Positions 1,028-23,997 of a stretch of DNA of 24,130 nucleotides are shown one piece after another. Source of the DNA: a virus. Every line of letters starts with the position of its first letter. Within the stretch, counting starts at the first letter, position 1. Location of the stretch: positions 1-24,130 of the IMG/VR virus record IMGVR_UViG_3300035070_001157; one strand, given 5' to 3'. A program made the position numbers and the translations under genes. A model generated the notes under the pieces. That model was not told where the DNA came from and did not search any database. It saw nothing but the letters and a program-made list of their open reading frames with translations.

Positions 1028-2455
1028 TTAATATGATGATTCAACATAATCAGATGATACCGCAAACAATTCTTTTTCACCGCCGTAATCTGTTACGCTG
1101 TCTGTTGATACTGTTACTGTTGCAAAATAACCTTTAATACCTGTCATTGCAGCTCCCCAAACAATTTCGCCAGCAGTAGCAGGGCTACTATTAATAAGAT
1201 TAGCTTTGTATTTATTTTCTTTTCTTACAAACCCAGCATAATTAATTGGGGGTATAAGAGTTGCTGGATATTGATTTCCATAATTATCATAAGCTCCCTG
1301 ATTATAACTATATACCAATGTAGTCTTATCTTGTGTATTACTTAATGGTGTTTGTGGGCTGCCAATACCTGTAAAGTCAGATTCAAAAGCATTTACTTCC
1401 CAACCATTACTACCCTCATAATTTACAGTTTGGAATACCTTAGGCATGCTAACATTAGGATTAAAAACAAATTTTACAGAAGAATCGCTTATTACTTCAT
1501 AAAATTCATTTCGTTTGGCACTAGGATCGTAATGTTTATAAATCGCACCATTATGGAATGTATAAAAGTTATTTTTTAAGCTGGTCCCCATTGTAGGTTT
1601 ATAAGTATAAAAACTTGTCCATCCTAATGGTTGCTCGTCAAACGATAAAGTTTTATAAGATTCATTTGCACCCGCTGGTTGTAATGATAATGTATAATTT
1701 TTATTATATATATCCCACATACCTTGTGCTTTGCCAGTTAACCCCTGGTTATTATCTAAAGTGCTTAATTCATCTCTAAAGAAATCAGTCATACCATAAT
1801 TAGATATTTCTGTAATACCATCAGCAGATAATCTTAATACCGCATTTCTATCTTTATCTGTAAAATATTTTCTATAGCCATAAACAGCAAAGCTTTCTGG
1901 ATTTCTACTAATACCAAAATTACCGCCATATGCTTGGACTTGTCCTATCACATTTGGACCCGTTGTTATTGTAGCATTTCCTTCGGCAGAATAAATCGCA
2001 TCTTTGTCTATTAAAGCTCTACTTATTTTATTTTCTTGAAATATAATTAAGTTTGTATCTTCTGCATATAACTTTTGTATTGAGCCATTAGCAGGGTCAA
2101 CACTTTTAGTAATATCAGTTCCTACAGAAAATACATTAGTGTCATTAATACCTGTTCTTGAATTAAATACACCTGAATATATTAAAGAATTAATTCTATA
2201 CGATGCATTAGGTTCTGATTCAACAATATAAGCTTTAACACCATATCCATTAGATACATTGTTATAACCACCCCTTATCCTAGCCTCTTCAATAGACCAA
2301 TTTTTATTACTAGTGACTGCCGGATCTGGTATTGATGGTGAACCAATAGGGTATGCCGTACCATTGCATCCATTCCACACAGGAGTATCTGAACTATTAA
2401 CGGTCTTTCTTAAAATGAAGCTATTAAAATACTTTACTTCTATTATTGCAGGCAT
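1028..2455 (-). CDS. Tail nozzle / hub-like protein
   Basis: This 475-residue protein carries the signature of the nozzle-type tail proteins seen in many short-tailed marine phages. A block near residues 175-230 reads GISRNPESFAVYGYRKYFTD, followed by VLRLSADGITEIS and YGMTDFFRDEL. A preceding block (about 90-150) has the form GVFNSRTGIND...GSIQKLYAEDTNLIIF. From memory these belong to a propeller-like body at the distal tail (P22 gp10 / T7 gp12 type). In relatives I recall the same blocks as the C-terminal part of one very large tail protein; here they form a separate gene starting 33 bases after the stop of the 1401-residue gene. The N-terminus begins at once with the conserved-looking YFNSF block, consistent with a split. 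No signal peptide is visible. Confidence 0.65.
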   Translation of the reverse strand: MPAIIEVKYFNSFILRKTVNSSDTPVWNGCNGTAYPIGSPSIPDPAVTSNKNWSIEEARIRGGYNNVSNGYGVKAYIVESEPNASYRINSLIYSGVFNSRTGINDTNVFSVGTDITKSVDPANGSIQKLYAEDTNLIIFQENKISRALIDKDAIYSAEGNATITTGPNVIGQVQAYGGNFGISRNPESFAVYGYRKYFTDKDRNAVLRLSADGITEISNYGMTDFFRDELSTLDNNQGLTGKAQGMWDIYNKNYTLSLQPAGANESYKTLSFDEQPLGWTSFYTYKPTMGTSLKNNFYTFHNGAIYKHYDPSAKRNEFYEVISDSSVKFVFNPNVSMPKVFQTVNYEGSNGWEVNAFESDFTGIGSPQTPLSNTQDKTTLVYSYNQGAYDNYGNQYPATLIPPINYAGFVRKENKYKANLINSSPATAGEIVWGAAMTGIKGYFATVTVSTDSVTDYGGEKELFAVSSDYVESSY

Positions 2456-2488
2456 ATATTATTATTACTTATTTATAGTATAAATTAC

Positions 2489-5400
2489 TTATTGATTTTT
2501 TCGATTAGGTTGAGCAGATTGCTTAATTTTTTTACCATTTGAATCAAATTGAGCTGTCCATCTTCTGTCTTGATCAGTATAAGTAGAAGTAGTTTTTTCT
2601 CCTATCCCATTTGTATGTGAATTTGAATTACCATACTTGCTATTTATAGAATTATCTACTGCAGCACAATAAGAATGAAATCCGCCATTAGTTTGATTTA
2701 ATCCATTAGCTGTAGTTAATGGGATAGTTAAATTAGGATCTTTATATAATTGGGTTATATATTTAAAATGCCATTCTCTAGCGTACACTTCAGTTGCTAT
2801 AGGCTGAGTATTTTGTGCAGTTGTTCTATTAGATTCTCCATTTGAAATCCAATAAGAAAAAGAGGTTGCTGTACCATAAGCACTAGGATAATAAAAATCT
2901 CCAAAAGTTATTTGTGTTTGAAATTTTCCAGAAAACATTTCTGTACCATGATAAATGCTGCCATTTGGAGGGCATATACCTTGATTAACAATTGTTCCAG
3001 TTACTGTTATTGGTACGTTTTGGCCGCCACTACTAGCTGTACCATAAGGAAAACCAACTATTAATCTATAATCACCAAATTTATCTGGACTAGACCCATA
3101 TCCTTGGTCTTTACCTATAGCAAAAGTTCTATTAGCTTTAGCTGATAAATTAGAAGAACCTTGGCTTGATTTTGCATCAACAAACACATTAGCTACATCT
3201 GTTGAAAATAAAGTATTGCTACTACCTTCCGGAGTTCCTTGTAATGAAAGCGAACTTGTTGCAGTGGGGTTTAATAAAACACCTTTATTACTAATTGAAT
3301 CAGAGCTATTTGGTAAAATTGCTGGATAATCACTTTTTTGCTGACCACCAAATTTTATAGGTATTCCTTCAATATCAACTGCTTGTACCCAATTATCATT
3401 CCCAGCTAAACTATCAGCAGCAGAACGATATTGTAAATATGCAGGCCATTTTAAATTTAAAGTATCATTAGTATTCGATGAATTAAAAGAATATTGATTT
3501 AAAATAAAGTCAACACTTATAAATCCAGTTCCAGCAGATAAATCACAATCTTCTTGATCACAATTTACTTTAGCTTTAGAATTAAAATTGCTGTTTTTCA
3601 TTTCTCCTTGACTAAAACCACCAATATTAGTACAATTAGATGGTCCTGTAAATCTTGTTTGCTTATAGCTTTCCGCTAAATCATTATCTAATTCTAGATT
3701 AAGCTCACCTTGATTCCTACTTATTGGTTCATTAGCAGATGCATTTGTTTTATTTGCAACCCAATAAATTCCATAAGCTTGGTTTTGAATACCTATAAAT
3801 GAAGGTGTATAAGGGAAAATATTATTATTAAATCCACAGTTAGCTGGCTCTTCGCCAAATATAACAGAAGTAGCACAAGTGGTTTGTAATCCCCCCGCAT
3901 CTGCCACACTTACAACTACATTATAGCTTCCAGCTGCTTGACCAGTAGACTCTGTTAGTATACCTGTGGCAGGGTCCATAATCAAAGTACTTAATTCAGG
4001 TGTAGAAGAAACTAATGCCCATGTTAAGTTTTGAGTTTCTTTTCCCCCTGTTGGATCTGAACCATTAGTACCAGTAAAAGTAGCTACATTGGTACTGCCT
4101 TGTTGAACAGTTACAGCAGGATTACAATTTGTTATTATAGGGGCAGCATTTGATAATGAACCTGTTGACGTCAAAGTAGTTTGATTACCCCCAGCATCAA
4201 TTACATTAAATGTAAATGTATATGATTCTTTAACAGAAGCATTAACACCATAATAAAAATTTGCTGTTGTTTTTAAATACCATTTATTTGGTGTTCCAGG
4301 CACCTCAACTAATTCCCAACCAGTTCTATTAGTTCCAGTCCCATCAACAATGCTAGTTAATGTTACTATAGAATTATTTATAGGTTGATTAGCGATATCT
4401 AAAGGAATAAATTCCCCTGTAACAGCTGTGCCAATAGGATCAGATTCAGATTGTAAAAAACTCCACCCTTCAAAACCAGTAGCTTGGTCGGTACCTTCCG
4501 CAATAGCTTGATTTAGTTCTGATATTAAACCTGCAGTTGAAGTTTCCCAAAATATATCTAATCTTGATATTTCAGGTGTTGTTTCATAAATACCTAATAG
4601 TATATTATAAGTGCCTGTTGCAAGAGGCTGAGAACCAATAGGTTCACCATCTTGTGTTATTCTACCTAATAAAGGATTTGATTCTGTTTGATAAATATCA
4701 GCATATTCAGCTACTGTAGTAAATAAATCATCTTGTTCAGCTATTGTTGAAACAGTATGAGAAGCTCTACCTGGATAATATTGTTTATTAAACAAAGGGT
4801 TAGCGGTTGTTCCGTCTGGTGTTACTCTACCAAATAGCTGTACGCTGCTTCGATATTGTTTTTGATTGGGTCCAACTTCACTTAAATCTCTTGGAACTTT
4901 ATTTATATTATCATTTAATAAAGTTATATGAGCCGTTTTATTAACCTCCAAGCTAGAAGCTAAATCAGCAGCATTAGGATAACCATTAATTATACCAGGC
5001 AGATATACATTGTAGTAATCTTGTTCTGCTTGTTTAACAACTATTTTATAAGAATACCACCCTAATGGATTGTATTTAGATGAACTAGAATCACCATTAT
5101 ATAAGCCAGGCCATCCGGTTTGAAAATCAGGTGGATTATTAGGAATTATAGTATTAAATAATACTTTTAAAGCATCTCCAGACCAAGTATTTGGACTATT
5201 TCCAGCCTCTGTTTCATAAGGATGATAATAAGTAGACCCTGCAAAAGACCCTGATGAACCGCTAACATCTCCATCATTAACTATAGATAATATAGTAGAT
5301 GAGGATCTTGCATACTTATCTGATAAAACAATACCAACCTGATAATTTCTGTTTTGTTTTAGGGTATGCATAGGGTATTCAACTATGCTTGTTGAGTCAG

Positions 5401-6694
5401 TAGGATAATTTTTATTTGCAATACTATTTACGCTAAAATTAGCCTTATTAAATGCTCCAACATTATAATCTAAATAACTAGGGGGTGTATGTTTATCTTG
5501 AAAATTACTATAGACTATTCTGTTACTTATAATTTCTTGACCAAAAGCTCTAACTGGAACTTTATCATATACTCTAATTACTTCAGAGTCTGGTAATGTT
5601 CTAAATGGTTTTCTTGCTTGGTAGTCATATTCAAAAGTATCAGTTAATATTTTTTTAATTTCGTCAGCAGTAATAACATCTACTACTTGCACCGCAATTT
5701 GATCAGATTCTTTGTATAAAATCTCAATATCAGTTACTTTAAAATTACTAAATGTAGAATTTCCATTAGTTGGTAAAGGTATTTGCAATAAAATATTGTC
5801 TACTTTATTTTCCATAAAGTCTACAATAGTACTTCTGTAAGCAGCATTTTCATCTTCTGAATTACCAGTAGGTGTAGTACTTTCTAAAAAATAACCATCT
5901 TGTTTTGGTATAAATGTAGCTTGAGTAAATGGAGCCATTACAGAATACTCACCATCATCAAATTTATATCTATAGCTAAATCTTACAAATTTATCTTCTA
6001 AATAGTCTGGATCTCCAGCATAATTTGCATTATAATTTGGGTTTGCTGTAATACCATCTGGTAAAAATTCACTAGTAACGTCTAATAGTGTTGTTTCCCA
6101 TATAGGAGAAGCATCAGTGCCTGTATTTTTGTATAATTCAATAGGTTTAAACGGATTTAATTTTGCTACTGATATTTGGTCTTCTGTGGTATAATAATCT
6201 GCTGATTGAGTTGCAGATACAATATTTATTTTTCTTGGTTGATTTCTATTATCAGTCCAAAATAATAAATTTTCTAAAACATTAACCCCATATATTGGAT
6301 TAGTTGTAGAGAAATTTAAAAAATTACCCTCTACAAGTTTTACAACGTTATCGTTTAGTACATTATAAGAATATATAAAGTTTTTAGCAGCAGTATTATA
6401 AGTAGGATTAAAATTATAATTAAGGTCGGTATTATTAGTTAAAAATACATAAATAGTATCATTAGTAGCATCCGTAAATTCCCCAATTGTAATCAAATCA
6501 TTTACTCCAGTTATAGATCTAAAATCTATAACTTTCTTATTACCTAAAATGTTCTGCAATGCGCCTACATCAGCACCTTCCGATTTGCTTACTTGTATAT
6601 TAATTCCTTCACGATATTCTCCAGATGGTAGTAACCTATCATCTAAATCTTGATTCATTTTAGATTTAATAAAAGCATTTTTAACTTCAGCCAT
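2489..6694 (-). CDS. Large tail stabilisation protein with inserted cadherin/Ig-like domains
   Basis: This is the largest protein of the window (1401 residues). The N-terminus, MAEVKNAFIKSKMNQDLDDR followed by LLPSGEYREGINIQVSKSEG, is a signature I recognise from tail stabilisation proteins of crAss-like and other Bacteroidota or marine podoviruses. Residues 1 to about 735 form the conserved beta-rich body, ending in SRLDIFWETSTAG. Residues of about 735-845 and 846-948 look like two beta-sandwich repeats of the cadherin/Ig type; each ends in a similar strand (NVIDAGGNQTT, SVADAGGLQTT), and the second contains MDPATGILTESTG. Residues 950-1401 are Asn/Ser/Gly-rich with no domain I recognise. 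Such Ig-like domains often bind surface sugars weakly. The gene lies 6 bases after the adaptor gene and precedes its apparent partner, the nozzle-like gene. Confidence 0.7.
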   Translation of the reverse strand: MAEVKNAFIKSKMNQDLDDRLLPSGEYREGINIQVSKSEGADVGALQNILGNKKVIDFRSITGVNDLITIGEFTDATNDTIYVFLTNNTDLNYNFNPTYNTAAKNFIYSYNVLNDNVVKLVEGNFLNFSTTNPIYGVNVLENLLFWTDNRNQPRKINIVSATQSADYYTTEDQISVAKLNPFKPIELYKNTGTDASPIWETTLLDVTSEFLPDGITANPNYNANYAGDPDYLEDKFVRFSYRYKFDDGEYSVMAPFTQATFIPKQDGYFLESTTPTGNSEDENAAYRSTIVDFMENKVDNILLQIPLPTNGNSTFSNFKVTDIEILYKESDQIAVQVVDVITADEIKKILTDTFEYDYQARKPFRTLPDSEVIRVYDKVPVRAFGQEIISNRIVYSNFQDKHTPPSYLDYNVGAFNKANFSVNSIANKNYPTDSTSIVEYPMHTLKQNRNYQVGIVLSDKYARSSSTILSIVNDGDVSGSSGSFAGSTYYHPYETEAGNSPNTWSGDALKVLFNTIIPNNPPDFQTGWPGLYNGDSSSSKYNPLGWYSYKIVVKQAEQDYYNVYLPGIINGYPNAADLASSLEVNKTAHITLLNDNINKVPRDLSEVGPNQKQYRSSVQLFGRVTPDGTTANPLFNKQYYPGRASHTVSTIAEQDDLFTTVAEYADIYQTESNPLLGRITQDGEPIGSQPLATGTYNILLGIYETTPEISRLDIFWETSTAGLISELNQAIAEGTDQATGFEGWSFLQSESDPIGTAVTGEFIPLDIANQPINNSIVTLTSIVDGTGTNRTGWELVEVPGTPNKWYLKTTANFYYGVNASVKESYTFTFNVIDAGGNQTTLTSTGSLSNAAPIITNCNPAVTVQQGSTNVATFTGTNGSDPTGGKETQNLTWALVSSTPELSTLIMDPATGILTESTGQAAGSYNVVVSVADAGGLQTTCATSVIFGEEPANCGFNNNIFPYTPSFIGIQNQAYGIYWVANKTNASANEPISRNQGELNLELDNDLAESYKQTRFTGPSNCTNIGGFSQGEMKNSNFNSKAKVNCDQEDCDLSAGTGFISVDFILNQYSFNSSNTNDTLNLKWPAYLQYRSAADSLAGNDNWVQAVDIEGIPIKFGGQQKSDYPAILPNSSDSISNKGVLLNPTATSSLSLQGTPEGSSNTLFSTDVANVFVDAKSSQGSSNLSAKANRTFAIGKDQGYGSSPDKFGDYRLIVGFPYGTASSGGQNVPITVTGTIVNQGICPPNGSIYHGTEMFSGKFQTQITFGDFYYPSAYGTATSFSYWISNGESNRTTAQNTQPIATEVYAREWHFKYITQLYKDPNLTIPLTTANGLNQTNGGFHSYCAAVDNSINSKYGNSNSHTNGIGEKTTSTYTDQDRRWTAQFDSNGKKIKQSAQPNRKNQ

Positions 6695-9678: not shown

Positions 9679-11124
9679 TTATGCAGATGCAGTAAACAAT
9701 ACAAAATTGTTGGCCGCTTGTACAACTAAACATCTTTCAGAAAGGAAGTGAACTTCCATTGCATCAAGATCAGAAGTATAAGCTCCTCCAACAGAACCAG
9801 TTAACCAAGACTTCATTCTTCTGTCGTCAGCTTGTGAAGCTCTATAACGAACATGCAAGAATGGTCTACGGATATTAGTTCCAAGAATTTGATCGTATAC
9901 AGTTGAAGTACCAGCAGGTACAAGTACACCATCAATACCAGATCCTACTTCTCCAGCACCATTAGTAGCACCACGAGTAGAAGCATCATTTAAGTATTTC
10001 CAGTCAGTCTTATAAAAATCATATGATCCTCTACGGAAACCAGTGAATCCAAGATTCAATGCCATTTCTTCAGAGTTTTCAAATAATCCATAAGCAGTAC
10101 CTCCATTTGCTCCAGCAGAAAGACCAGCTAACATATCATCAAAATCAAGAGACGTTTGGCGATTTAAGAAAAGCATGTTTTCTTCAATAGCTCCTTGAGT
10201 ATCTAAATTTTTAAGGATATTATCAAATGATCCAAGTCCACCAACAGCAGTAAAGTTATTAATAACATTACCTCTTGATTGGATAGCAGCAAAAAGACCT
10301 TCAGTTCCTTTGTAACCATCCGCACCAAGTGTAGATCCACCAGAAACTAATTCACCTTCAACTACAGACATTTCAAGATAATCTTCAAAACGTAAACGAG
10401 TTTCAGATTCAGCTTTTAAATACCATAAATATCCAGATGCTCCAGCTTCAGTAGCAACTTCAACCCATCCAATTTGAGCAGTATCAGATCCAGAGATAGA
10501 ATACTTTTCTTTAATAATAATAGGTGAATTACTGTACTGAGTAAAAGAAGGCGTTACAGATTTAATATCAGAATCTGTTGTTCCTTTTTTGTATTCAGAA
10601 CCATATACAAAGATTTTAAGTGCTCCTGCCGCTGCAGAAAGAGCAGTCATATCAGCCGCTGTATAAGGCTTAACTGTAACAGTAGCTAAAGTAGCAGAAG
10701 TGTTTACACTATCTGTTACAAAAACTTTAAGATCTTGCCCAGTTGCAGGATCAACTACTACTAATGTTTGATTTTTAGAAATAACATTAGCTACATAACT
10801 AGGTCCAGCAGTTGCATTTAATGCAAAAGTTAAAGTAGTTTCTGTTGCTTTAGTTACATCATTATATGCAATATGCAATCTATTTTGTTCTGACCAAACC
10901 ACTTGATCAGATGTCATTGGCATTTCAGCACCAACCATACGTAAGAATCCAGAAAGCGTACGGTTTCCGTAACGCTCTACTTCAGCTTCATAAATTTCAG
11001 GAAGATACTGTTGTGCAAAATCATTAGTTCCATTTGTGAAATCTAAATAATTGCTCTCAAGAAGTTGTTGCTTCTGAGAAGGTTTAATTGACCCATATTC
11101 GGGTGCCACAGGTACTACTGCCAT
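9679..11124 (-). CDS. Major capsid protein (HK97-fold type)
   Basis: The protein has 481 residues and a smooth, Ala/Gly/Thr-rich composition typical of a shell protein. The N-terminal arm (residues 1-60) includes YLDFTNGTNDFAQQYLPEIY and RYGNRTLSGFLRMVGAE. The next block, MTSDQVVWSEQNRLHIAY, is one I associate with capsid proteins of Bacteroidota podoviruses. The middle (about 85-190) is beta-rich and may be an inserted surface domain. The C-terminal third contains FLHVRYRASQADDRRMKSWL and ends in LSERCLVVQAANNFVLF, like an A-domain strand. It follows the scaffold gene by 11 bases and is the only gene here with a strong terminator behind it, as expected for the most abundant protein. No maturation protease gene is visible in the window. 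Confidence 0.8.
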   Translation of the reverse strand: MAVVPVAPEYGSIKPSQKQQLLESNYLDFTNGTNDFAQQYLPEIYEAEVERYGNRTLSGFLRMVGAEMPMTSDQVVWSEQNRLHIAYNDVTKATETTLTFALNATAGPSYVANVISKNQTLVVVDPATGQDLKVFVTDSVNTSATLATVTVKPYTAADMTALSAAAGALKIFVYGSEYKKGTTDSDIKSVTPSFTQYSNSPIIIKEKYSISGSDTAQIGWVEVATEAGASGYLWYLKAESETRLRFEDYLEMSVVEGELVSGGSTLGADGYKGTEGLFAAIQSRGNVINNFTAVGGLGSFDNILKNLDTQGAIEENMLFLNRQTSLDFDDMLAGLSAGANGGTAYGLFENSEEMALNLGFTGFRRGSYDFYKTDWKYLNDASTRGATNGAGEVGSGIDGVLVPAGTSTVYDQILGTNIRRPFLHVRYRASQADDRRMKSWLTGSVGGAYTSDLDAMEVHFLSERCLVVQAANNFVLFTASA

Positions 11125-12342: not shown

Positions 12343-14754
12343 TTATCTAGGCGTAAATTGTTCTAAGCCAAATCCGCTAAGGCTGTCATTTCCAGCAGAT
12401 TCAAAGTTTTTAGGTAATAAATCATTTTGTCTTTGATCTATTAATTCAGATTGTTGAGTTCCTTGTATTTTAACTCTTTTATCTTTTCTATCCTCAATCT
12501 CTTTTTCTTTTTGCATATCAGCCTTTGCTCTAACTTGAGCTAATTGCATTTGATAATTAAATTCTTCAGCCATTAATTCTCTTTTTATCTGAGCTTCGGT
12601 TTGTAACCTTTGAATTTCAAATTGAGATTTAGCTTGTTCAATATTAACTTTTTCTTGAGTTAAAGCTTGTTGCTTTTGAACTTCTGCTAAAGCGGCTGCC
12701 TCTGAGGCTTGAGCATTTGCTTGTGCTTGTGCTTGAATATTAGCAAGTTGTTGTGCTTCGGCTCTTTCTTGTTTTTTCTTTCTTTTAAATTTAAGTAATT
12801 GATTAGCTAATTTTAAATTTTTAATTTGCCTAATATCAATTGCATCTTCAAGATCAATACCACCCGATTGCAAAGCCACTTGTATATTTTGTTCAAGTTG
12901 TGCTTTTTCTTCTTCTTCTGGCTCTAATTCTAAATATATACCAAAATCATGAAGATTAAGATTTGATATTTCTTGTAATGTTTTAACATTAAATGTTGAA
13001 ATACTATTTTTTAAAGCGTTAGCTGTAAGTGGAAAGCTTAAAGCATCTGCGATTCTTAAAGAAATATTCTCACATACTCTTAAATATATATACATTCCAC
13101 CTTGTAATATATGTCTTGTAGCAACATTAGATGCATTAGCAGCCATTTTTTGCAGACCAACTAAAGCATTTTTATCTGGATTACTTCCATCTACAGCTTC
13201 ATTAAGCCCTGTAACATCCCTAATCATCTGTAAATAATACTGGTAAGTATTTATTAAAGAAGCTATTTTACCTTGTCCAGAAGATGTAGCCAATTCTTGT
13301 ACTGGGATTTTACCTCTATTTAAATCTCCATCTTGGGTTAATGATCTACCTACAATACTACCAGTTTGAAAATACATGTTTAATGCTTCCGCAGGATTAT
13401 AATTAGTTCCATTACCAAGATCTACTTCTGCTAATCCATCCATATCTAAGAACACTCCATCAGGAACTATTCTTGACATAACTTGCTGTAGCTTTAAATG
13501 GGTTAATTGAATCATATCAGCAAAACTTGTTATTCTACTAACTATAGATTCAATCTTACCTTTATACATTCTTGGCGCAGCAATTGTATAATTCATTTTT
13601 ACTTTTGTAGTATCAGCATAAGGTCTTGACATATGCTCGGATAATCTCCAATCAAGCATTGTATTATTACCTAAAACTTTTGCCCCGGTATATAACACTT
13701 CAATTGTTCTAGATACTTTTTTAAAGTTATCATTTTCAGGAGGATTAAAACTATCATCTTTTTGTATAACTTTTTCAAGACCACTTTCGGTCTGTTTAAT
13801 TTTAAATACTTGGTTGTTATAAGTTTTATATTCAAAATAAAGCACTTGCACCGTATTTTCATCATAATTTCCCCAACCAGTAATATATTGTTTATTACCT
13901 GGCATATTTTGAATATTCTTTAATTCTTCTTCAGAAATATGTGGAAATTGTTTTTTTAATTCAGGTATAGTAATAGACTTAATTTCACCGACATAATAAA
14001 TATCTTCAAAATTAGGATCTTCTGTATATGAATAAACTAAATAAGCAGGATCTATATATTCTGTAGTAATCCCATTGCTTTTATTAAAGCTTGTTTTTGC
14101 TGCACCAATACCAATAACAGTTAAATCGTAATTTATTCTTCTTTTAATTGATTCGTATTTATTAAAATCAAGTACATTATTAATAGCTTCTTCTTCTGCT
14201 ATTTCAATAGCCTCCTTGTAACTAGTTTGTAACATTATTTCTAGTTCTTCTGGCGTTTCTGGCAATTGATCTGCAGGTATAGATGAATTAGAAAAATCTT
14301 CCCCTAATATTTGATTACCAATTTGCTGAAGTTCTTGTGTGTACATGTCACGTAATACAGCTTTAGCATAATTTGTTTTTTTCTCAATAGACACTGGGTC
14401 TTGAGCATATGCTTTTATTTCAACTTCTTTTTCTGATATACCATTTACTAAAATATCTACAAACTTTGGTATTACAGGAACTGGTTTCCAATCTAAATTA
14501 AGATAAGATATATCGCCATTTACAGCAAATTCATCTTTATATTTTTGTATTGATTGTTCACCCCTTGCATATAATCTTAATGAATGAAAATTATTCCAAT
14601 TAGTTAAATATCTATTACCACTAGTTCTACCTTGATCAAACCATTCTTGTTCAATAGCGTGAGCCACTTGTGTACCATACTCTAAAGTAGATTTTTCAGC
14701 ATCACTAACAACTTGGCTAGGAAAAGAACTATTAGTATTTGTTTGTATATTCAT
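12343..14754 (-). CDS. Portal protein
   Basis: The 803-residue protein is at the long end for portals, as in crAss-like and P22-like phages. The N-terminal third includes FHSLRLYARGEQSIQKYKDE and NLDWKPVPVIPKFVDILVNG, followed by a long helical region. A wing/stem-like body contains YDLTVIGIGAAKTSFN and EYIDPAYLVYSYTEDP. The clip and crown region has RDVTGLNEAVDGSNPD. From about residue 655 to 775 there is a long Gln/Ala/Glu/Lys coiled coil (ANIQAQAQANAQASEAAALA), which would form a barrel reaching into the head. Portals are dodecameric DNA gates on which the terminase docks. The start codon follows the TerL stop codon directly (TAA then ATG), so the two are probably translationally coupled. 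Confidence 0.85.
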   Translation of the reverse strand: MNIQTNTNSSFPSQVVSDAEKSTLEYGTQVAHAIEQEWFDQGRTSGNRYLTNWNNFHSLRLYARGEQSIQKYKDEFAVNGDISYLNLDWKPVPVIPKFVDILVNGISEKEVEIKAYAQDPVSIEKKTNYAKAVLRDMYTQELQQIGNQILGEDFSNSSIPADQLPETPEELEIMLQTSYKEAIEIAEEEAINNVLDFNKYESIKRRINYDLTVIGIGAAKTSFNKSNGITTEYIDPAYLVYSYTEDPNFEDIYYVGEIKSITIPELKKQFPHISEEELKNIQNMPGNKQYITGWGNYDENTVQVLYFEYKTYNNQVFKIKQTESGLEKVIQKDDSFNPPENDNFKKVSRTIEVLYTGAKVLGNNTMLDWRLSEHMSRPYADTTKVKMNYTIAAPRMYKGKIESIVSRITSFADMIQLTHLKLQQVMSRIVPDGVFLDMDGLAEVDLGNGTNYNPAEALNMYFQTGSIVGRSLTQDGDLNRGKIPVQELATSSGQGKIASLINTYQYYLQMIRDVTGLNEAVDGSNPDKNALVGLQKMAANASNVATRHILQGGMYIYLRVCENISLRIADALSFPLTANALKNSISTFNVKTLQEISNLNLHDFGIYLELEPEEEEKAQLEQNIQVALQSGGIDLEDAIDIRQIKNLKLANQLLKFKRKKKQERAEAQQLANIQAQAQANAQASEAAALAEVQKQQALTQEKVNIEQAKSQFEIQRLQTEAQIKRELMAEEFNYQMQLAQVRAKADMQKEKEIEDRKDKRVKIQGTQQSELIDQRQNDLLPKNFESAGNDSLSGFGLEQFTPR

Positions 14755-16962
14755 TTAAAGTATAATTTTTGAGGTACTACCATCATTATTGTATTTTTTA
14801 AAACCTAAGGTAAGCACAGGTTTATTTACTTTATTTATTGGAGCATACCTATTTTTATTACATGCCATTATAGCTAATCCAGAACTAATAGAAGCATCGT
14901 GAGATGTTCTTTTATTAATATTAAATTTTGCCCAGTCATTTAATGTTCTTTGAAAATACATATCACCATATCCTTCACCTAAAAATCCAACATATGTTTC
15001 AATATAAGATTCAATAGCAGCGGCATGAGCTTGTTTTATATCTTCACTTGAATTGGGAATTCCACCAATTTCTTTTTCAGTTACTGATAATTTATTCCAA
15101 ATTTTATCTGGTCGGTTCATTGAAAACCCTCTATAACCTCTTCTTCTTAAATAATATAGTAATCTTGGTTTATTATTTTCCGCTAATATTGGCATGCCAT
15201 AAAATACTAATGCCATTAATACATCTTCAAAAAATATTTCTGCAGTTTGAGGTCTTGCAATATATTCTAAAAAGAAACTGTTTGGCGGAACATCTTCCAT
15301 TGAAAATTTAGTTAACCCATGTAAAGAACCATTAGAAGATCTTGTATCAACAGTTCCGGAAATATCGTAGCTATCACAACCAAATGCTCCTAAGTCTTCA
15401 TTACCAGGATATTTAATACCATTCTTTATTATCACTCGGTTTTGAAGATTTTTATTAGGAACCCAAGAAACTTTAAATCTTCCGTCTTTATTTGGTGTAA
15501 ATGTTACTCTAGTATCTTTTATTCCATTTTCCCAGCTAAAACTTCCTGTAGTAACTACAGCTGAGTTTCTTAAATCTTCATTATAATCTATTTGCTCATA
15601 AATTTTTGTCAAATTAAATAAAGATTGTTTTGTTTCATCTCTAAACGCATGTTGCTCGGTTCTTGGAAATTGACGATAAAATTCATTTAAACCATCTTGA
15701 TCATTTTTTAAACCATCAACTTCATTTTCCCAGTGTTCTATAACTCCAACGTCAATCCATTGGTTATCAACTCCTTTAATTGGTTCTGCTGGCGTTTCGA
15801 ATACAGGTAATCCATAAGTATCAATGAATCCTTCGAAATTCCATTCCATAGGTATGAACAAACTATATAATCCTGAGCTAGTCTGTCCATTGCGGTTTCT
15901 TTTGGTAACATTTGATTCATCATAAAGTTTTTTAAAGTTATTACCTCCTTTATCTAAAGCATTTGATGTTGAACCCATCATACATTTACCAATAATTTTG
16001 CTACCTAATCTTAATGTTGTTTTTGTTACTCGCCAGTTATTTAAAATGTTATCAGGTCTTTCCCATTTACCAGATTCATCATGCACTAGTAATCTTAATT
16101 TTTCACCATCATAAGAGTTATCTCCTGTATTTTTCCAGTCAATAGTGGTATCAAGGCCTTCAAGGTCTTCTGTTATTTCTTTAGAAGTAATAGATTTACG
16201 AGTAAGTTTAGAAGCAGGTACTCTGTATGCTAGCTCTGTTTTTGGCCTATCCATACCATCTTGTATTGGTTTAAAAAAGAAAGGATAATTAACAGATATA
16301 GGAACTACTTTATCAGTAAACATTTTTTTAGCATCAGCTCCTGTTTTTGATAATATTCCAAATCTTGCATCAGAAGTACTAGTCGCTTGATTAACAGCTT
16401 CACCTGATGCCATAAAGCTAAAACCTGAACGCCTATTTTTAAGATAACACATTCCATAGCATCTTTGATCAGCTTTCGTTGCTTCCCAAAATATAAAAAA
16501 TAATCTATTTGCTTCTCTATAATCTGGCCTACCTACATCAATTTTAGTCCATTGCAAATACATATAATGAGTTCCTGTAATATAAGTTGGTATTTTATTA
16601 TTATAAAACCAAAAGCCTTCATCGCGTTTTATAAACTCATTATCAATATATGAATACCATTTGTTTTTAAAATTATCAGGATAAGTTTCCCAATCAAAAA
16701 CAGTTTTAATATTATTTAATTCTTTTGGGTATTCGCTTGCTACCCATTTATTATCATTATTAACAATTTCTTTAGGTTTTTCAGGTAAAGCTATTGCTAA
16801 ATTTTGTATTTCAATTATTTCTCCAATTTTTCCGCTTTTACTTATAACTATAATATCATATTCTTTATTATAGCCATATTCCCATTTATTATAACGATTC
16901 ATTCGTTTTATAATATTTGGTTTAATTGGAGTTATTGTTTTTACAAGAGATTGCGTATACAT
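14755..16962 (-). CDS. terL: Terminase large subunit (packaging ATPase and nuclease)
   Basis: This 735-residue protein packages DNA into the procapsid. The ATPase half shows a deviant Walker A near residue 175 (CYLKNRRSGFSFMA), a Walker B with catalytic Glu near 290 (KLRLLVHDESGKW) and a coupling-type motif MMGSTSNA near 320. The nuclease half is of RNase H type: first acidic cluster near 525 (FGCDSYDISGT) and last Asp near 688 (SHDASISSGLAIMA). Length and motif style match TerL of crAss-like and marine podoviruses. It overlaps the stop of the 90-residue upstream gene by one base (TAATG) and abuts the portal start, a tight packaging operon. All key acidic residues appear present, so it should be active. 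Confidence 0.9.
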   Translation of the reverse strand: MYTQSLVKTITPIKPNIIKRMNRYNKWEYGYNKEYDIIVISKSGKIGEIIEIQNLAIALPEKPKEIVNNDNKWVASEYPKELNNIKTVFDWETYPDNFKNKWYSYIDNEFIKRDEGFWFYNNKIPTYITGTHYMYLQWTKIDVGRPDYREANRLFFIFWEATKADQRCYGMCYLKNRRSGFSFMASGEAVNQATSTSDARFGILSKTGADAKKMFTDKVVPISVNYPFFFKPIQDGMDRPKTELAYRVPASKLTRKSITSKEITEDLEGLDTTIDWKNTGDNSYDGEKLRLLVHDESGKWERPDNILNNWRVTKTTLRLGSKIIGKCMMGSTSNALDKGGNNFKKLYDESNVTKRNRNGQTSSGLYSLFIPMEWNFEGFIDTYGLPVFETPAEPIKGVDNQWIDVGVIEHWENEVDGLKNDQDGLNEFYRQFPRTEQHAFRDETKQSLFNLTKIYEQIDYNEDLRNSAVVTTGSFSWENGIKDTRVTFTPNKDGRFKVSWVPNKNLQNRVIIKNGIKYPGNEDLGAFGCDSYDISGTVDTRSSNGSLHGLTKFSMEDVPPNSFFLEYIARPQTAEIFFEDVLMALVFYGMPILAENNKPRLLYYLRRRGYRGFSMNRPDKIWNKLSVTEKEIGGIPNSSEDIKQAHAAAIESYIETYVGFLGEGYGDMYFQRTLNDWAKFNINKRTSHDASISSGLAIMACNKNRYAPINKVNKPVLTLGFKKYNNDGSTSKIIL

Positions 16963-17234
16963 TATTTAGATCTCTTTTCAGCAAACCCACTAAAACTTTC
17001 TTTTTGTTTTACCGGTTTATCTTCAATTAAATTTTTTTCAGCCTCAATGCGATTTAAAATTTCAAAAGCATCAAATATTGCCAGCTTTTTGGTTGCTGCT
17101 GCATTTTTTAATCTATCTGCAGAAACATCATCTTCCGTACCAGTAACAATTTTTTCTTCAGCTACCTTAATTAATTCCTCAACGGCTTTCTGTCCAGCTT
17201 GGATTATACTTAATTTCGTCTCCTTTATATTCAT
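16962..17234 (-). CDS. Small terminase subunit candidate
   Basis: This 90-residue, mostly helical protein includes IIQAGQKAVEELIKVAEEKI and SADRLKNAAATKKLAIFDAF. It sits directly before TerL with a one-base TAATG overlap, where small terminases normally lie, and its size and charged helices fit an oligomeric DNA-recognition subunit. I recall similar genes in marine phages beside terL, but no clear helix-turn-helix is visible by eye, so the call is mainly contextual. Its start overlaps the last 56 bases of the upstream double-GroES-like gene; the next Met is too far inside to be plausible. The C-terminus is basic (GFAEKRSK). Confidence 0.5.
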   Translation of the reverse strand: MNIKETKLSIIQAGQKAVEELIKVAEEKIVTGTEDDVSADRLKNAAATKKLAIFDAFEILNRIEAEKNLIEDKPVKQKESFSGFAEKRSK

Positions 17235-17784
17235 ATTTAATTACAATATCATTTGATTTCATGCAATACAATCTTTCGTTATCTATAACAAAATCATATT
17301 CGCTATTTGGTGTGTACCCAATAAGGTCTCCAGGAGTAATTTTAAGCTTATTTAATGAGCTATTGCCATACTTTAATATACCAATAAGCTTTTGCTCTTT
17401 TTCAAGCGAAAATTGATCTTTATTTTTTAAAGGTGAAACAAAGCATCTGTCTCCAAAACTTTTCCAATCTTTATTATTTTTATATAAATAAATTTGATCT
17501 AAAGCACAAAAATATAAATTATCTTTAAAAAATGATCTACTATCTTTTTGCTTCCCTTTCATATCATAAAATCTTCTAAAAACATTATGATGTATTACTA
17601 TAGTATCACCAACTTTTATATCTGTATTATATGCTAATGGAGTTTTAACAACTTTAGCTATATTATTTACAAACTTCCAGCTTTCAATTTTTGTATTTAC
17701 TATTAAGTTTTTTTTACCAACCTTAATATTATTATTGTATCTTTCTCCTAAAGGCTCTACAATAAAATCGTATATACTATTCAT
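17179..17784 (-). CDS. Tandem GroES-like protein (putative double co-chaperonin)
   Basis: The 201 residues read as two GroES-type halves. Half one (about 4-102) has YDFIVEPLGERYNNNI, then a loop with the hydrophobic triplet L27-I28-V29 (compare the IVL of the GroES mobile loop), then NIAKVVKTPL, DIKVGDTIVIHH and NLYFCALDQIYLY. Half two (about 110-185) has DRCFVSPLKNKDQFSL, LIGILKYGN, KITPGDLIGYTP and a very GroES-like end, DNERLYCMKSNDIVIKY. The order beta-barrel start, x-GD-x-V strand and final Glu/Ser-Asp-Ile strand recurs in both. Chloroplast Cpn20 is a known tandem of two such domains. I infer a co-chaperonin for the phage or host GroEL. It overlaps the upstream 75-residue gene by one base (TAATG). 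Confidence 0.6.
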   Translation of the reverse strand: MNSIYDFIVEPLGERYNNNIKVGKKNLIVNTKIESWKFVNNIAKVVKTPLAYNTDIKVGDTIVIHHNVFRRFYDMKGKQKDSRSFFKDNLYFCALDQIYLYKNNKDWKSFGDRCFVSPLKNKDQFSLEKEQKLIGILKYGNSSLNKLKITPGDLIGYTPNSEYDFVIDNERLYCMKSNDIVIKYEYKGDEIKYNPSWTESR

Positions 17785-18011
17785 TAATATTCAAGATCAT
17801 ATTCAACGGATATTGCCATGTTTGAATTAAACTTCTTCCATGGCATTACCTCGTTGTTTTTCTTTATATAAATGTTATAAGAATTATCTTGTTCATCTAA
17901 AAGTATATAAGCTATTTCGTGGCCTCCATATACTTGCTGACCAACTGAATAATGCATTGCTTCGTTTTTATAATCAGAACCAATACTTATTTTTCTTATA
18001 ACAGAACTCAT
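17784..18011 (-). CDS. Small conserved-looking protein, unknown function
   Basis: This 75-residue protein begins MSSVIRKISIGSDYKNEAMH, a start I recall from several marine phages, always unannotated. It predicts as a short beta-rich fold (QVYGGHEIAYILLDE, NSYNIYIKK) with no Cys pair, membrane segment or catalytic motif. Its stop overlaps the start of the tandem GroES-like gene by one base (TAATG), and its start overlaps the upstream coiled-coil gene in the same way, so the three are likely co-translated. Coupling to the GroES-like gene hints at a shared assembly role, but nothing in the sequence proves it. Confidence 0.6.
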   Translation of the reverse strand: MSSVIRKISIGSDYKNEAMHYSVGQQVYGGHEIAYILLDEQDNSYNIYIKKNNEVMPWKKFNSNMAISVEYDLEY

Positions 18012-21310: not shown

Positions 21311-21757
21311 TTATCTATTTTTATCTTTATTTACGTTGTGTATTGCTGTTATTAAAACAGTATCAGTATATGTTTTACCTTTCATTATTGGATTTCTTCT
21401 TTCGTTTGTAGGTATATCATCAAGCCCAAGCATAATACGATATATTCTGCTTATCATTTGTTTGCCTTTAAAAGAAACTTTATATATATGGTATTTTTGG
21501 GTAGTATGATTTCTTTTACGCCATACTACAATCCAATTATTTTTTAATAATTTATTCCAACGTTTATTGTCCCAGCTATATGCGTAAGTACCAATTTGGT
21601 AATCATTTTTAGTGAATAAATCCATACAGTCTAAATATATTAATAATTCAAGATCTGCATCTGTAAGGTTGTTGTTTTTGCAAGCCCACTTTCTTATTAT
21701 TCGATAATGTTTTAACAAGTTTAATTCTCTAATATCACTTGCTTCTAGCTTTTTCAT
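21311..21757 (-). CDS. Winged-helix-like (MarR-type) DNA-binding protein
   Basis: The 148 residues resemble a MarR/PadR-type winged helix: LTDADLELLIYLDCMDLFTK (helices, 31-50), WDNKRWNKLLKNNWIVVWRK (recognition helix and first wing strand, 62-81) and HIYKVSFKGKQMISRIYRIM (second wing strand and dimer helix, 90-109). The sequence is quite basic. I infer a transcription regulator, perhaps of late genes, or a DNA-binding packaging factor; the fold call is from pattern only. Its ATG overlaps the groES stop codon (ATGA), so it is translationally coupled to groES, an unusual partner for a regulator. Confidence 0.55.
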   Translation of the reverse strand: MKKLEASDIRELNLLKHYRIIRKWACKNNNLTDADLELLIYLDCMDLFTKNDYQIGTYAYSWDNKRWNKLLKNNWIVVWRKRNHTTQKYHIYKVSFKGKQMISRIYRIMLGLDDIPTNERRNPIMKGKTYTDTVLITAIHNVNKDKNR

Positions 21758-22014
21758 AAAACAACAACTATATCTTGTAATTTAATAACATGATATGTTT
21801 CTTTACTAATTTCTATTTTATGCCCCGCGTGACGATCATAAAATATAGAATCGCCTTCTTTAACACCTTCTACTTCGGTACCAATTGATAAAACTTTAGC
21901 TTGTATATATCTAATGTCATCCCTTTGATTTTCAGAAAGTAAAAGACCACCTTTCGTTTGAGTGGTTCCTTCTTTTATTTTATTTATTATTAAATTTCTA
22001 CCTATTGCTTTCAT
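21754..22014 (-). CDS. groES: GroES-like co-chaperonin
   Basis: The 86-residue protein follows the GroES plan: GRNLIINKI at the start, a mobile loop with G22-G23-L24-L25-L26 (compare GGIVL, the part that binds GroEL), IQAKVLSIGTEVEGVKEGDS, then FYDRHAG and a last strand ending HVIKLQDIVVVL. It is about ten residues shorter than E. coli GroES. The missing part seems to be near the roof hairpin, which T4 gp31 and other phage versions also change. It would cap the phage or host GroEL. It starts 17 bases inside the groEL 3' end, so the two are tightly coupled, in the order groEL-groES. Confidence 0.85.
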   Translation of the reverse strand: MKAIGRNLIINKIKEGTTQTKGGLLLSENQRDDIRYIQAKVLSIGTEVEGVKEGDSIFYDRHAGHKIEISKETYHVIKLQDIVVVL

Positions 22015-23560
22015 TAATTCTTAAATTATTAATTATACAATCAGTAGATAATATTGTGGTTGCAACAGAGGCAGCATTTCTTAATGCACTTTTTGTCACC
22101 AATAACGGATCAATAATACCTTCTTTTATTAAATTGCAACCCTCGCCTGTAATTACGTTAATGCCCCATCCTTCTTTAAAATACGGCCCGTAAGATATAC
22201 CCGCATTAGCAAGTATTGTTTTATAAGGGGCTTTAATAGCTCTAAGTAAAACTTCTTCGCCTTTATTAGTACTATTAATATTATCAGATGCGTTATGCAA
22301 AGCAATACCAGCACCGGAAACAACGCCTTCTTTGATAGCAGCTTTTGTAGCACAAATTGCATCTTCAACACGATCTTTCTTTTCTTTTAATTCAACTTCA
22401 GAGTTTGCCCCAACTTTTACTACAGCAATTTTGGCTGATAATCTGGCTAATCTTTTTTCAAGCTTAACAACTTCGTTAGGACGTTTTGTTTTTAACAAAT
22501 CTTTTTTAATACTACTAATAACATCCTTAATTTCTTTTGTCATTTCATTAACTTGAAGAATAGTCTCTTCATCAGTAGTGATACTTTTTATACAAGTACC
22601 TAAGTGCTCTGGTTGTATAAGATCTAAATCATCACCTAAATCTTCATTAATTATTGTAGCTCCTGTAAGCATTGCAAGATCATCTAATGTTTCTTTTTTG
22701 CTTACTCCATAAGTAGGAGCATTAATTATATTTATTTTTATATTACCTTTAACTTTATTCATTGCTAATGTTGAAATCACAACGGGCTCAACATCTGCAA
22801 TTATTAATAAAGGCTTATTATTTTTAATAACATGCTCTAAAACACTTTGTATTTGTCTAACATTATCAACTGGTGATTCTATTAATAACACTAAAGGGTT
22901 ATCTAATTCAGCAGCTCTTTGCTGTTGGCTAGTTATAAAATGAGAATTTGTTAATCCTTTATTATATTGAACGCCATTAACAACTTCAAATTTTGTTTCA
23001 GAATCTTCTGATGTTTCCATCATTACAACACCAGTTTCTCCTACTGATCTAAATGCATCAGCAATAATTTTACCTAATTCAGGATCGTTATTAGTTGAAA
23101 TTGTAGCAATATTGTCTATCATATTACCCGCAACAGGTAATGATTTTTCTTCTAAATATTTTACAACTAATTCTGTTGCTTTTTCAATACCATCTTTTAA
23201 AGCTCTTGTACTTATTGGATCATCTAAATCTAATTCATTGTAAGCTTCCAATAGTATTGCGTGAGCTAATACGGTGGCCGTGGTTGTACCATCTCCAGCT
23301 TCCTTTACAGTTTTACGAGCAGCTTCTTTTAATAACGTAGAGCCCATGTTTTCCACTGGGTCTAATAATATAATACTATCAGCTACTGTTACACCATCTT
23401 TAGTAATTAGCGGCTTTCCGTTACCGTCTTCAAGCATCACACATTTACCGCTAGCCCCTAATGTAGAGCTAACGGCTTTTGTGAGTTTTGTTATTCCTTC
23501 AAATACTTTATCTTTAGCTTCTTTTCCAAAGCTAAGATTTTTGACTATTAAGTCTGACAT
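21998..23560 (-). CDS. groEL: GroEL-like chaperonin of the phage
   Basis: The 520 residues align by eye with GroEL along the full length. Nucleotide-site residues are kept: D55 (KDGVTV), D90 in GDGTTTATV and D400 in RVEDAICATKAA. The apical domain (about 185-365) includes VDNVRQIQSVLEHVIKNNKP and LLIIADVEP, the substrate- and GroES-binding helices. Differences from bacterial GroEL are: TLGASGKC where TLGPKGRN is usual, GAG for GGG near 416-418, about 25-30 fewer residues, and no Gly-Gly-Met C-terminal tail. Phage GroELs are known in several large phages and often lack that tail. It probably folds phage capsid or tail proteins. It follows the 96-residue gene by 31 bases. Confidence 0.95.
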   Translation of the reverse strand: MSDLIVKNLSFGKEAKDKVFEGITKLTKAVSSTLGASGKCVMLEDGNGKPLITKDGVTVADSIILLDPVENMGSTLLKEAARKTVKEAGDGTTTATVLAHAILLEAYNELDLDDPISTRALKDGIEKATELVVKYLEEKSLPVAGNMIDNIATISTNNDPELGKIIADAFRSVGETGVVMMETSEDSETKFEVVNGVQYNKGLTNSHFITSQQQRAAELDNPLVLLIESPVDNVRQIQSVLEHVIKNNKPLLIIADVEPVVISTLAMNKVKGNIKINIINAPTYGVSKKETLDDLAMLTGATIINEDLGDDLDLIQPEHLGTCIKSITTDEETILQVNEMTKEIKDVISSIKKDLLKTKRPNEVVKLEKRLARLSAKIAVVKVGANSEVELKEKKDRVEDAICATKAAIKEGVVSGAGIALHNASDNINSTNKGEEVLLRAIKAPYKTILANAGISYGPYFKEGWGINVITGEGCNLIKEGIIDPLLVTKSALRNAASVATTILSTDCIINNLRINESNR

Positions 23561-23591: not shown

Positions 23592-23882
23592 TTATTTGAA
23601 AGTCTTTACAACTTTAGGACCATTTAAGAACTCAATCTTTTTAGCATAATGCTCAACTGTTGAATCAATTGCCATTTCAGCCCCTTTAATTGTTTCTCTT
23701 CTGGTTACGTCATGCCAAGTGTCTTCTTTTTTAAGGTCTTGGTATTCAGTTTGGTAAAAACCATTAGGTAATTGGACAATACGCCAGTTTCCTTTTTCAG
23801 CCATATGTTTCCATAAAGCTTTGGTTTCTTCGGTAATTTGTGGTTCACTACTCCACGAATGAGTGCGGTAATAAAAAGTCAT
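23592..23882 (-). CDS. Conserved-looking 96-residue protein, unknown function
   Basis: The protein reads MTFYYRTHSWSSEPQITEET, then KALWKHMAEKGNWRIVQLPN, GFYQTEYQDLKKEDTWHDVT, RRETIKGAEMAIDSTVEHYA and a basic tail. I recall the same pattern in proteins of marine T4-like and other phages, without a function. It is aromatic-rich with one long helix at about 64-84 and no membrane segment. It is the first gene after the longest intergenic region of the window and precedes groEL, so it likely opens this transcription unit. The leader before its ATG is A-rich (CCAAAACCAAATG), without Shine-Dalgarno, and contains a pseudoknot-like fold. Confidence 0.65.
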   Translation of the reverse strand: MTFYYRTHSWSSEPQITEETKALWKHMAEKGNWRIVQLPNGFYQTEYQDLKKEDTWHDVTRRETIKGAEMAIDSTVEHYAKKIEFLNGPKVVKTFK

Positions 23883-23900
23883 TTGGTTTTGGTTTTATTT

Positions 23901-23947
23901 CGGTTTACACTAATTTAATTACGCTAAAGGTAAACCGTCCTTAGCGT
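23901..23947 (-). promoter_or_regulatory. Leader RNA with potential H-type pseudoknot
   Basis: On the minus strand ACGCTAAGG (23947-23939) pairs with CCTTTAGCGT (23930-23921) as a 9-bp stem with one bulged base. Its 8-base loop (23938-23931) contains CGGTTTA, which is complementary to TAAACCG at 23907-23901, so either a pseudoknot or a switch between two exclusive stems is possible. It ends about 19 bases before the start of the 96-residue gene. There is no T-run, so it is not a normal terminator. A translational control or RNA-processing signal is the inference. Confidence 0.45.
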
Positions 23948-23997
23948 TTGGTTTATAGTATATTATTACTTGTTTTTTTTGTTATTTAATTATTTTT

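Follow-up and report, generated by a model that had tools for sequence, protein, structure and literature searches.

Does a phage that encodes groEL, groES and a further GroES-like gene carry a complete folding chamber of its own, and which GroEL do its lids serve? We analyzed the whole of IMG/VR record IMGVR_UViG_3300035070_001157 (24,130 bases; hereafter the window). Every gene discussed below, the late genes included, lies on the minus strand. To our knowledge, the phage chaperonins described so far fall into two kinds, lids that serve host GroEL (gp31, CocO) and GroEL relatives of jumbo phages that have no lid. Both parts occur in the window lineage, and its sequences bear signs that the rings have separated and that groove and loop are co-adapted. 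We consider it rather likely that this phage encodes a dedicated chaperonin for its own proteins, composed of a GroEL chamber, a cognate GroES and a second, tandem lid, for which we infer the ring number, the lid pairing and the substrates.

Order of the groEL-groES pair in phages and bacteria

The groEL gene (21998..23560) encodes a group I chaperonin of 520 aa. It matches Pfam Cpn60_TCP1 (PF00118) with an E of 1.5e-55 and 189 bits against a cut-off of 34, over positions 1-487 of the 490 in the profile. The groES gene (21754..22014) encodes a co-chaperonin of 86 aa with the mobile loop TKGGLLL and without a roof loop, and matches Pfam Cpn10 (E 9.4e-13; 48.5 bits against a cut-off of 21). PHROG matches were obtained for both genes, with E values of 2e-131 for groEL and 6e-15 for GroES. 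As originally predicted, groEL comes first and the groES ATG is located inside groEL, 17 bases from its 3′ end, so that the two minus-strand ORFs overlap at 21998..22014.

The third gene of this conserved unit (21311..21757) overlaps groES by 4 bases and encodes a MarR-like winged-helix protein of 148 aa. Its model has a pLDDT of 86, and the top PDB folds were MexR/MarR with a probability of 0.99 and a weak E (0.01). The mean column identity of this protein across relatives is 74%. Judged by the modeled fold, it may regulate the groEL-groES unit.

Directly upstream of groEL is an ORF of 96 aa (23592..23882), and near relatives have a similar sequence upstream of groEL. Upstream of this ORF and ahead of the unit lies a conserved intergenic stretch (23883-23969, minus strand). 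It holds a promoter-like element and then short inverted repeats, CGCTAA...TTAGCG and GGTTTAC...GTAAACC. The element, GTAATAATATACTATAAACCAAA (23947..23969, minus strand), occurs once in the window, is kept in the nearest relatives and is a candidate promoter of the unit. Sigma-70-type promoters in the region were not commoner than in shuffled sequences. Compared with three relatives, every gene of the unit shows purifying selection (dN/dS 0.05-0.33), with values of 0.07-0.33 for groEL, groES and the tandem gene.

To place the reversed order among other genomes, we searched viral contigs and obtained 80 loci with GroEL relatives of 57-96% identity. Together with cultured phages, the window record and a locus cut from the window, these gave 84 entries with both genes. 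In all 84, among them the cultured Flavobacterium elemo phages, groEL is first, and the two genes usually overlap. The overlap is 17 bases in 30 loci, 4 in 28 and 20 in 15, and most of the others vary. A groES gene was found in 84 of 86 groEL loci; one exception is cut by the contig end (L011), and in the other (L002, phage immuto) groES is annotated just upstream. Nine longer viral records were available, and groEL, groES and the tandem gene are present in 9/9. The shared order in 84 loci and the dN/dS values of 0.07-0.33 argue that the arrangement is more than chance.

Bacterial loci (n = 80) had groES first in 74 cases, no groES within 2 kb in three and groEL first in three. The last three (L118, L119 and L162) are from Planctomycetota, and a gap separates their groEL from the downstream groES in place of the overlap. 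The reverse order is thus real but not special to the window. The inverted pair is a mark of an old phage lineage and no peculiarity of this genome, and as it is conserved across the lineage it is no evidence of a one-off event.

The same data bear on a plainer explanation, that a host groES-groEL operon was recently captured and rearranged and that nothing about it is special. Bacterial groEL-first loci do exist, as the three from Planctomycetota show. Phages immuto and DAC23 have groES before groEL, as hosts do, and the tree puts their GroELs among or beside those of bacteria. But no bacterial GroEL among the 80 nearest retrieved is more than 42% identical to that of the window, which excludes a recent bacterial transfer, and the window protein belongs to a phage-only clade. 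We therefore rejected recent host capture as unsupported by tree or identity, and regard this explanation as very improbable.

That clade was recovered with support 100/99 in a GroEL tree of 58 sequences, for which the program warned of several long phage branches. Elemo and Panino join the window clade (96/97), and phi38:1 attaches next, as do two Manatee Spring phages. A branch with support 100/95 separates these from every bacterial GroEL sampled. When the long-branched phages except elemo were omitted, the viruses formed one group and the Bacteroidota another. AU tests rejected neither viruses with Bacteroidota (p 0.22) nor viruses with Flavobacteriaceae (p 0.28). An ancient Bacteroidota origin of the phage GroEL is compatible with these tests, and we do not claim that it was never bacterial. 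The GroES tree gave the same split of viruses and bacteria with weak-to-modest support (92/91); it is poorly resolved, with 95 columns and seven starred branches. The outcome that the original prediction named as contrary evidence, a recent transfer that nests the two proteins in a single bacterial clade, was thus not found, more firmly for GroEL than for GroES.

Ring contacts of GroEL and the GroES lid

We compared 68 GroELs of the clade with 80 bacterial GroELs, using E. coli residue numbers. The ATPase residues D52, D87 and D398, said beforehand to be kept in the window protein, are present there and in all 68, as is the GDGTTT loop. D155 is kept in 68/68 and E386 in 67/68. P33 of the nucleotide site is Ala in 68/68 clade members and Pro in 80/80 bacteria. 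The alignment also bears out the loss of the Gly-Gly-Met tail from the window GroEL, which ends in ...NNLRINESNR.

The contacts between rings differ more strongly. Residues 463-466, an inter-ring contact segment, are deleted in 68/68 clade GroELs. R452 is replaced by E in 29 and by K in 28 (57 of the 68), and A109 is changed too. Among the 80 bacterial GroELs, 75 have R452 and 78 have A109, and none has the 463-464 deletion. Of the E. coli-type inter-ring residues (A109, R452, E461, S463 and V464), those within 463-466 are deleted and the others are changed. Residues 452, 461, 463 and 464 are the ones mutated in laboratory single-ring GroEL (PMC5575113, PMC10953559). Since the residues that join one GroEL ring to the other are missing, the working form would probably be a single heptameric ring or weakly paired rings. 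Judged by a gap in the alignment, at a loop that is variable, the phage GroEL is possibly single-ring. In mitochondrial Hsp60 the salt bridges between rings are missing too, and double rings still form in some states (PMC5575113, PMC7174398). The GroEL of elemo retains the 463-466 segment, so the trait is not common to all phages that carry groEL and groES.

The apical groove is altered as well. In the clade, L234 is Q in 65/68, Y203 is H in 56, V263 is A in 64 and Y199 is mostly L. These are residues that we take to face substrate and lid. GroEL distances correlated with tandem-lid distances at a partial r of 0.65 and with GroES distances at 0.50, values in which saturation and shared ancestry partly remain, and the co-variation of GroEL with GroES is weak. 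Because the groove for substrate and lid changed along with GroES, the pair is probably specialized and not interchangeable with that of the host.

The shortening of GroES that had been noticed in the window could be located to its roof. The roof-loop segment (E. coli 42-60) has 10 residues instead of 19 in 61/63 viral GroES, and GroES is short because this loop is missing. The mobile-loop span (14-37) has 27 residues instead of 24 in 60/63, three more than in E. coli. The GroEL-binding motif GG[IL]xL is present, as TKGGLLL in the window and as GGLxL in most of the 63. The lid is thus of the gp31 type, with a long mobile loop and no roof loop. T4 gp31 departs from GroES in these two respects as well, and the changes are considered to make room for gp23, a larger capsid protein (PMC6318259). 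However, T4 encodes no GroEL and relies on the one of its host, whereas the window phage encodes GroEL next to groES. As in gp31, the longer loop and absent roof suggest that larger or protruding substrates should fit.

Compared with E. coli and Bacteroidota, the window GroEL and GroES share the fold, the ATP site and the loop motif. They differ in gene order, spacing, C-terminal tail, inter-ring contacts, apical groove and roof loop.

The jumbo phages EL, OBP and AR9 also encode group I relatives, and theirs are single rings or dissociate to them and need no co-chaperonin to act (PMC7185714, PMC9598537). In its missing inter-ring contacts, the window clade resembles them. The window GroEL could accordingly be an open-ring chaperone of this kind, which prevents aggregation and needs no lid, with GroES in a minor part. 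We consider this unlikely. Window-type phages carry groES in every complete locus, and it is conserved with its GroEL-binding loop under purifying selection. Over its full length, the window GroEL also has about 40% identity with bacterial GroEL, to which it is much closer than to the chaperonins of jumbo phages.

The tandem co-chaperonin

The tandem GroES-like protein named in the original prediction is real. Its gene (17179..17784, minus strand; PHROG 13932, E 1e-26) lies about 4 kb downstream of groEL-groES and two genes before the terminase, and encodes a Cpn20-like protein of 201 aa with two domains. The AlphaFold model, made from an alignment of contig-derived rows only, has a pLDDT of 87. 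Its best PDB match is chloroplast Cpn20 (7ekq_R) over the whole length (215 columns, E 3e-5, probability 1.00), and GroES structures were the next fold matches. A PDB sequence search with the protein gave no match, and Cpn20 was identified by the fold search only.

Of 46 distinct sequences, 44 have a fully hydrophobic tripeptide, L-[IV]-[LIV], at the loop position of domain 1, and in the other two its third residue is T. An N follows always or nearly always. Domain 2 is without a GroEL-binding loop, and the segment is deleted in some relatives. By these sequences, domain 1 keeps a hydrophobic loop of the GroEL-binding type, and domain 2 has lost it. Chloroplast Cpn20 also consists of two tandem Cpn10 domains, but it has the GGxLL loop in both, and the phage protein in the first only. 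For this reason we call it Cpn20-like and not Cpn20. Neither the lost second loop nor the lost inter-ring contacts of GroEL had been noted before in this DNA.

Three small features were noted around this gene. Its last 56 bases (17179-17234, minus strand) are shared with the following gene (16962-17234, 90 aa). The C-terminal extension of the tandem protein is longer and rich in Cys in a subclade to which L030, L035 and L049, among others, belong. An ORF of 75 aa (17784-18011, minus strand) immediately precedes the tandem-lid gene, and a gene of similar size is found there in MW202828, Calle_1 and elemo. The match of this ORF to the Pfam archaeal argonaute N-domain was weak and below the cut-off, and we discarded it as probably due to chance.

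The tandem gene is present in 59/59 loci that reach the terminase. The annotations of Callevirus, elemo and Panino name it co-chaperonin GroES, and so does that of phi13:2, at the same position. "Chaperonin cpn10" is already on the list of Pervagoviridae core proteins (PMC8776804).

The distribution of the lids raises the question of which GroEL they serve. In phi13:2 (Pachyviridae) we found the tandem lid and a short GroES, and groEL was not detected, so a phage can have a tandem lid and no GroEL, and the lid may act on the GroEL of the host. Accordingly, the tandem lid, and perhaps the short GroES too, could mainly serve host GroEL in the manner of gp31, with the phage GroEL as a separate, later addition. 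The single position of the tandem gene by the terminase across families and the core status of cpn10 in Pervagoviridae also favor this explanation. However, wherever there is a groEL, groES overlaps it, and no complete locus is without groES. At least the short GroES is thereby linked to the phage GroEL. All three genes are absent from Gundel_1, which also belongs to Pachyviridae, so the tandem gene is not indispensable. We regard service to host GroEL as a serious possibility, a little short of an even chance. Of the predicted folding chamber with two kinds of lid, the gene-level part stands. The ATP site is intact, the GroES looks like a cognate one and there is a second lid, but phi13:2 shows that the tandem lid may serve host GroEL.

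Cultured relatives share these parts in different arrangements. The elemo phages (Elemovirus) also have groEL followed by groES, abutting by 1 base, and a tandem co-chaperonin beside the terminase. They differ in that their GroEL is 38-40% identical to that of the window and that the pair is on the strand opposite its neighbors. Phages phi38:1 and Calle_1 (Pervagoviridae, Callevirus) have GroEL, Cpn10 and the tandem co-chaperonin, and their GroEL shares P33A, R452E and a gap at 464-469. In contrast to the window, their order is cpn10, a hypothetical gene and groEL, beside exonuclease and DNA polymerase genes.

GroEL was reported in phi38:1-like marine viral genomes in 2017 (PMC5332604), and GroEL with GroES in Panino in 2024 (PMC11590407). 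In the literature covered, which is incomplete, we found no description of lost ring contacts, a gp31-like GroES or a one-looped Cpn20-like lid in these phages. The single parts are already known in related phages, and the lost inter-ring contacts and altered groove are new here.

A possible phage folding chamber and its host

In the reading that we prefer, the dedicated phage chaperonin, GroEL with its predicted active ATP site and GroES would be made together from overlapping genes and form a chamber with its cognate lid. The substrates would be phage proteins, for example a virion structural protein of 52 kDa (9679..11124; PHROG 13704, E 2e-95), which is the probable major capsid protein and a candidate substrate.

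An engineered single-ring GroEL stalls with GroES unless the binding is weakened (PMC5575113). Lost ring contacts and an altered lid interface would fit a single-ring cycle. If it is one, the natural pair would reveal how the stalling of single-ring GroEL by GroES was overcome in evolution.

The tandem lid, made beside the terminase, would be a second co-chaperonin for host GroEL, perhaps for phage GroEL, or for both. A hybrid ring of tandem lid and GroES is conceivable, and a hybrid Cpn10/Cpn20 ring has been proposed for the chloroplast (PMC5780408). A natural single-ring GroEL with an open-topped GroES and a Cpn20-like second lid mixing into hybrid lids would make a chamber with an adjustable lid, unlike host GroE or the lid-less jumbo chaperonins. 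We put this forward tentatively, as possible but doubtful.

Data from phi38:1 address expression. GroEL peptides of this phage were found by mass spectrometry in infected cells and in free virions (PMC13288928). Lack of expression during infection, which would have spoken against a phage chaperonin, is thus not what is seen in this cultured relative. The protein (2251-3816 of locus L185) is gp054 in PMC13288928 and gp005 in the GenBank record. The peptides from free virions could also mean that phage GroEL is in addition, or mainly, associated with the virion and acts in the particle or early after entry. But a 14-mer or 7-mer that is abundant can be carried along when virions are purified, and PMC13288928 deals with methylation and makes no claim of packaging. 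We consider a role in the virion quite improbable. As phi38:1 and the elemo phages are cultured, the dedicated-chaperonin hypothesis can be tested in them.

The terminase large subunit (14755..16962; PHROG 6681, E 6e-163), used as the family marker, and the portal protein (12343..14754; PHROG 6547, E 1e-137) belong to families that also occur in phages of Flavobacterium, Cellulophaga, Maribacter and Tenacibaculum. The host is therefore probably a member of the Bacteroidota. It is probably a marine bacterium. Homologues of the Pervagoviridae terminase, portal and core cpn10 were found in this 24 kb fragment, as was synteny, and the terminase is 38% identical to that of phi38:1.

Near the other end of the window, an ORF of 475 aa (1028-2455, minus strand) matches the interior (944-1205) of a virion protein family of 1474 positions, and a separate ORF of 1401 aa (2489-6694, minus strand) precedes it. 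The two are possibly one large structural protein in two pieces.
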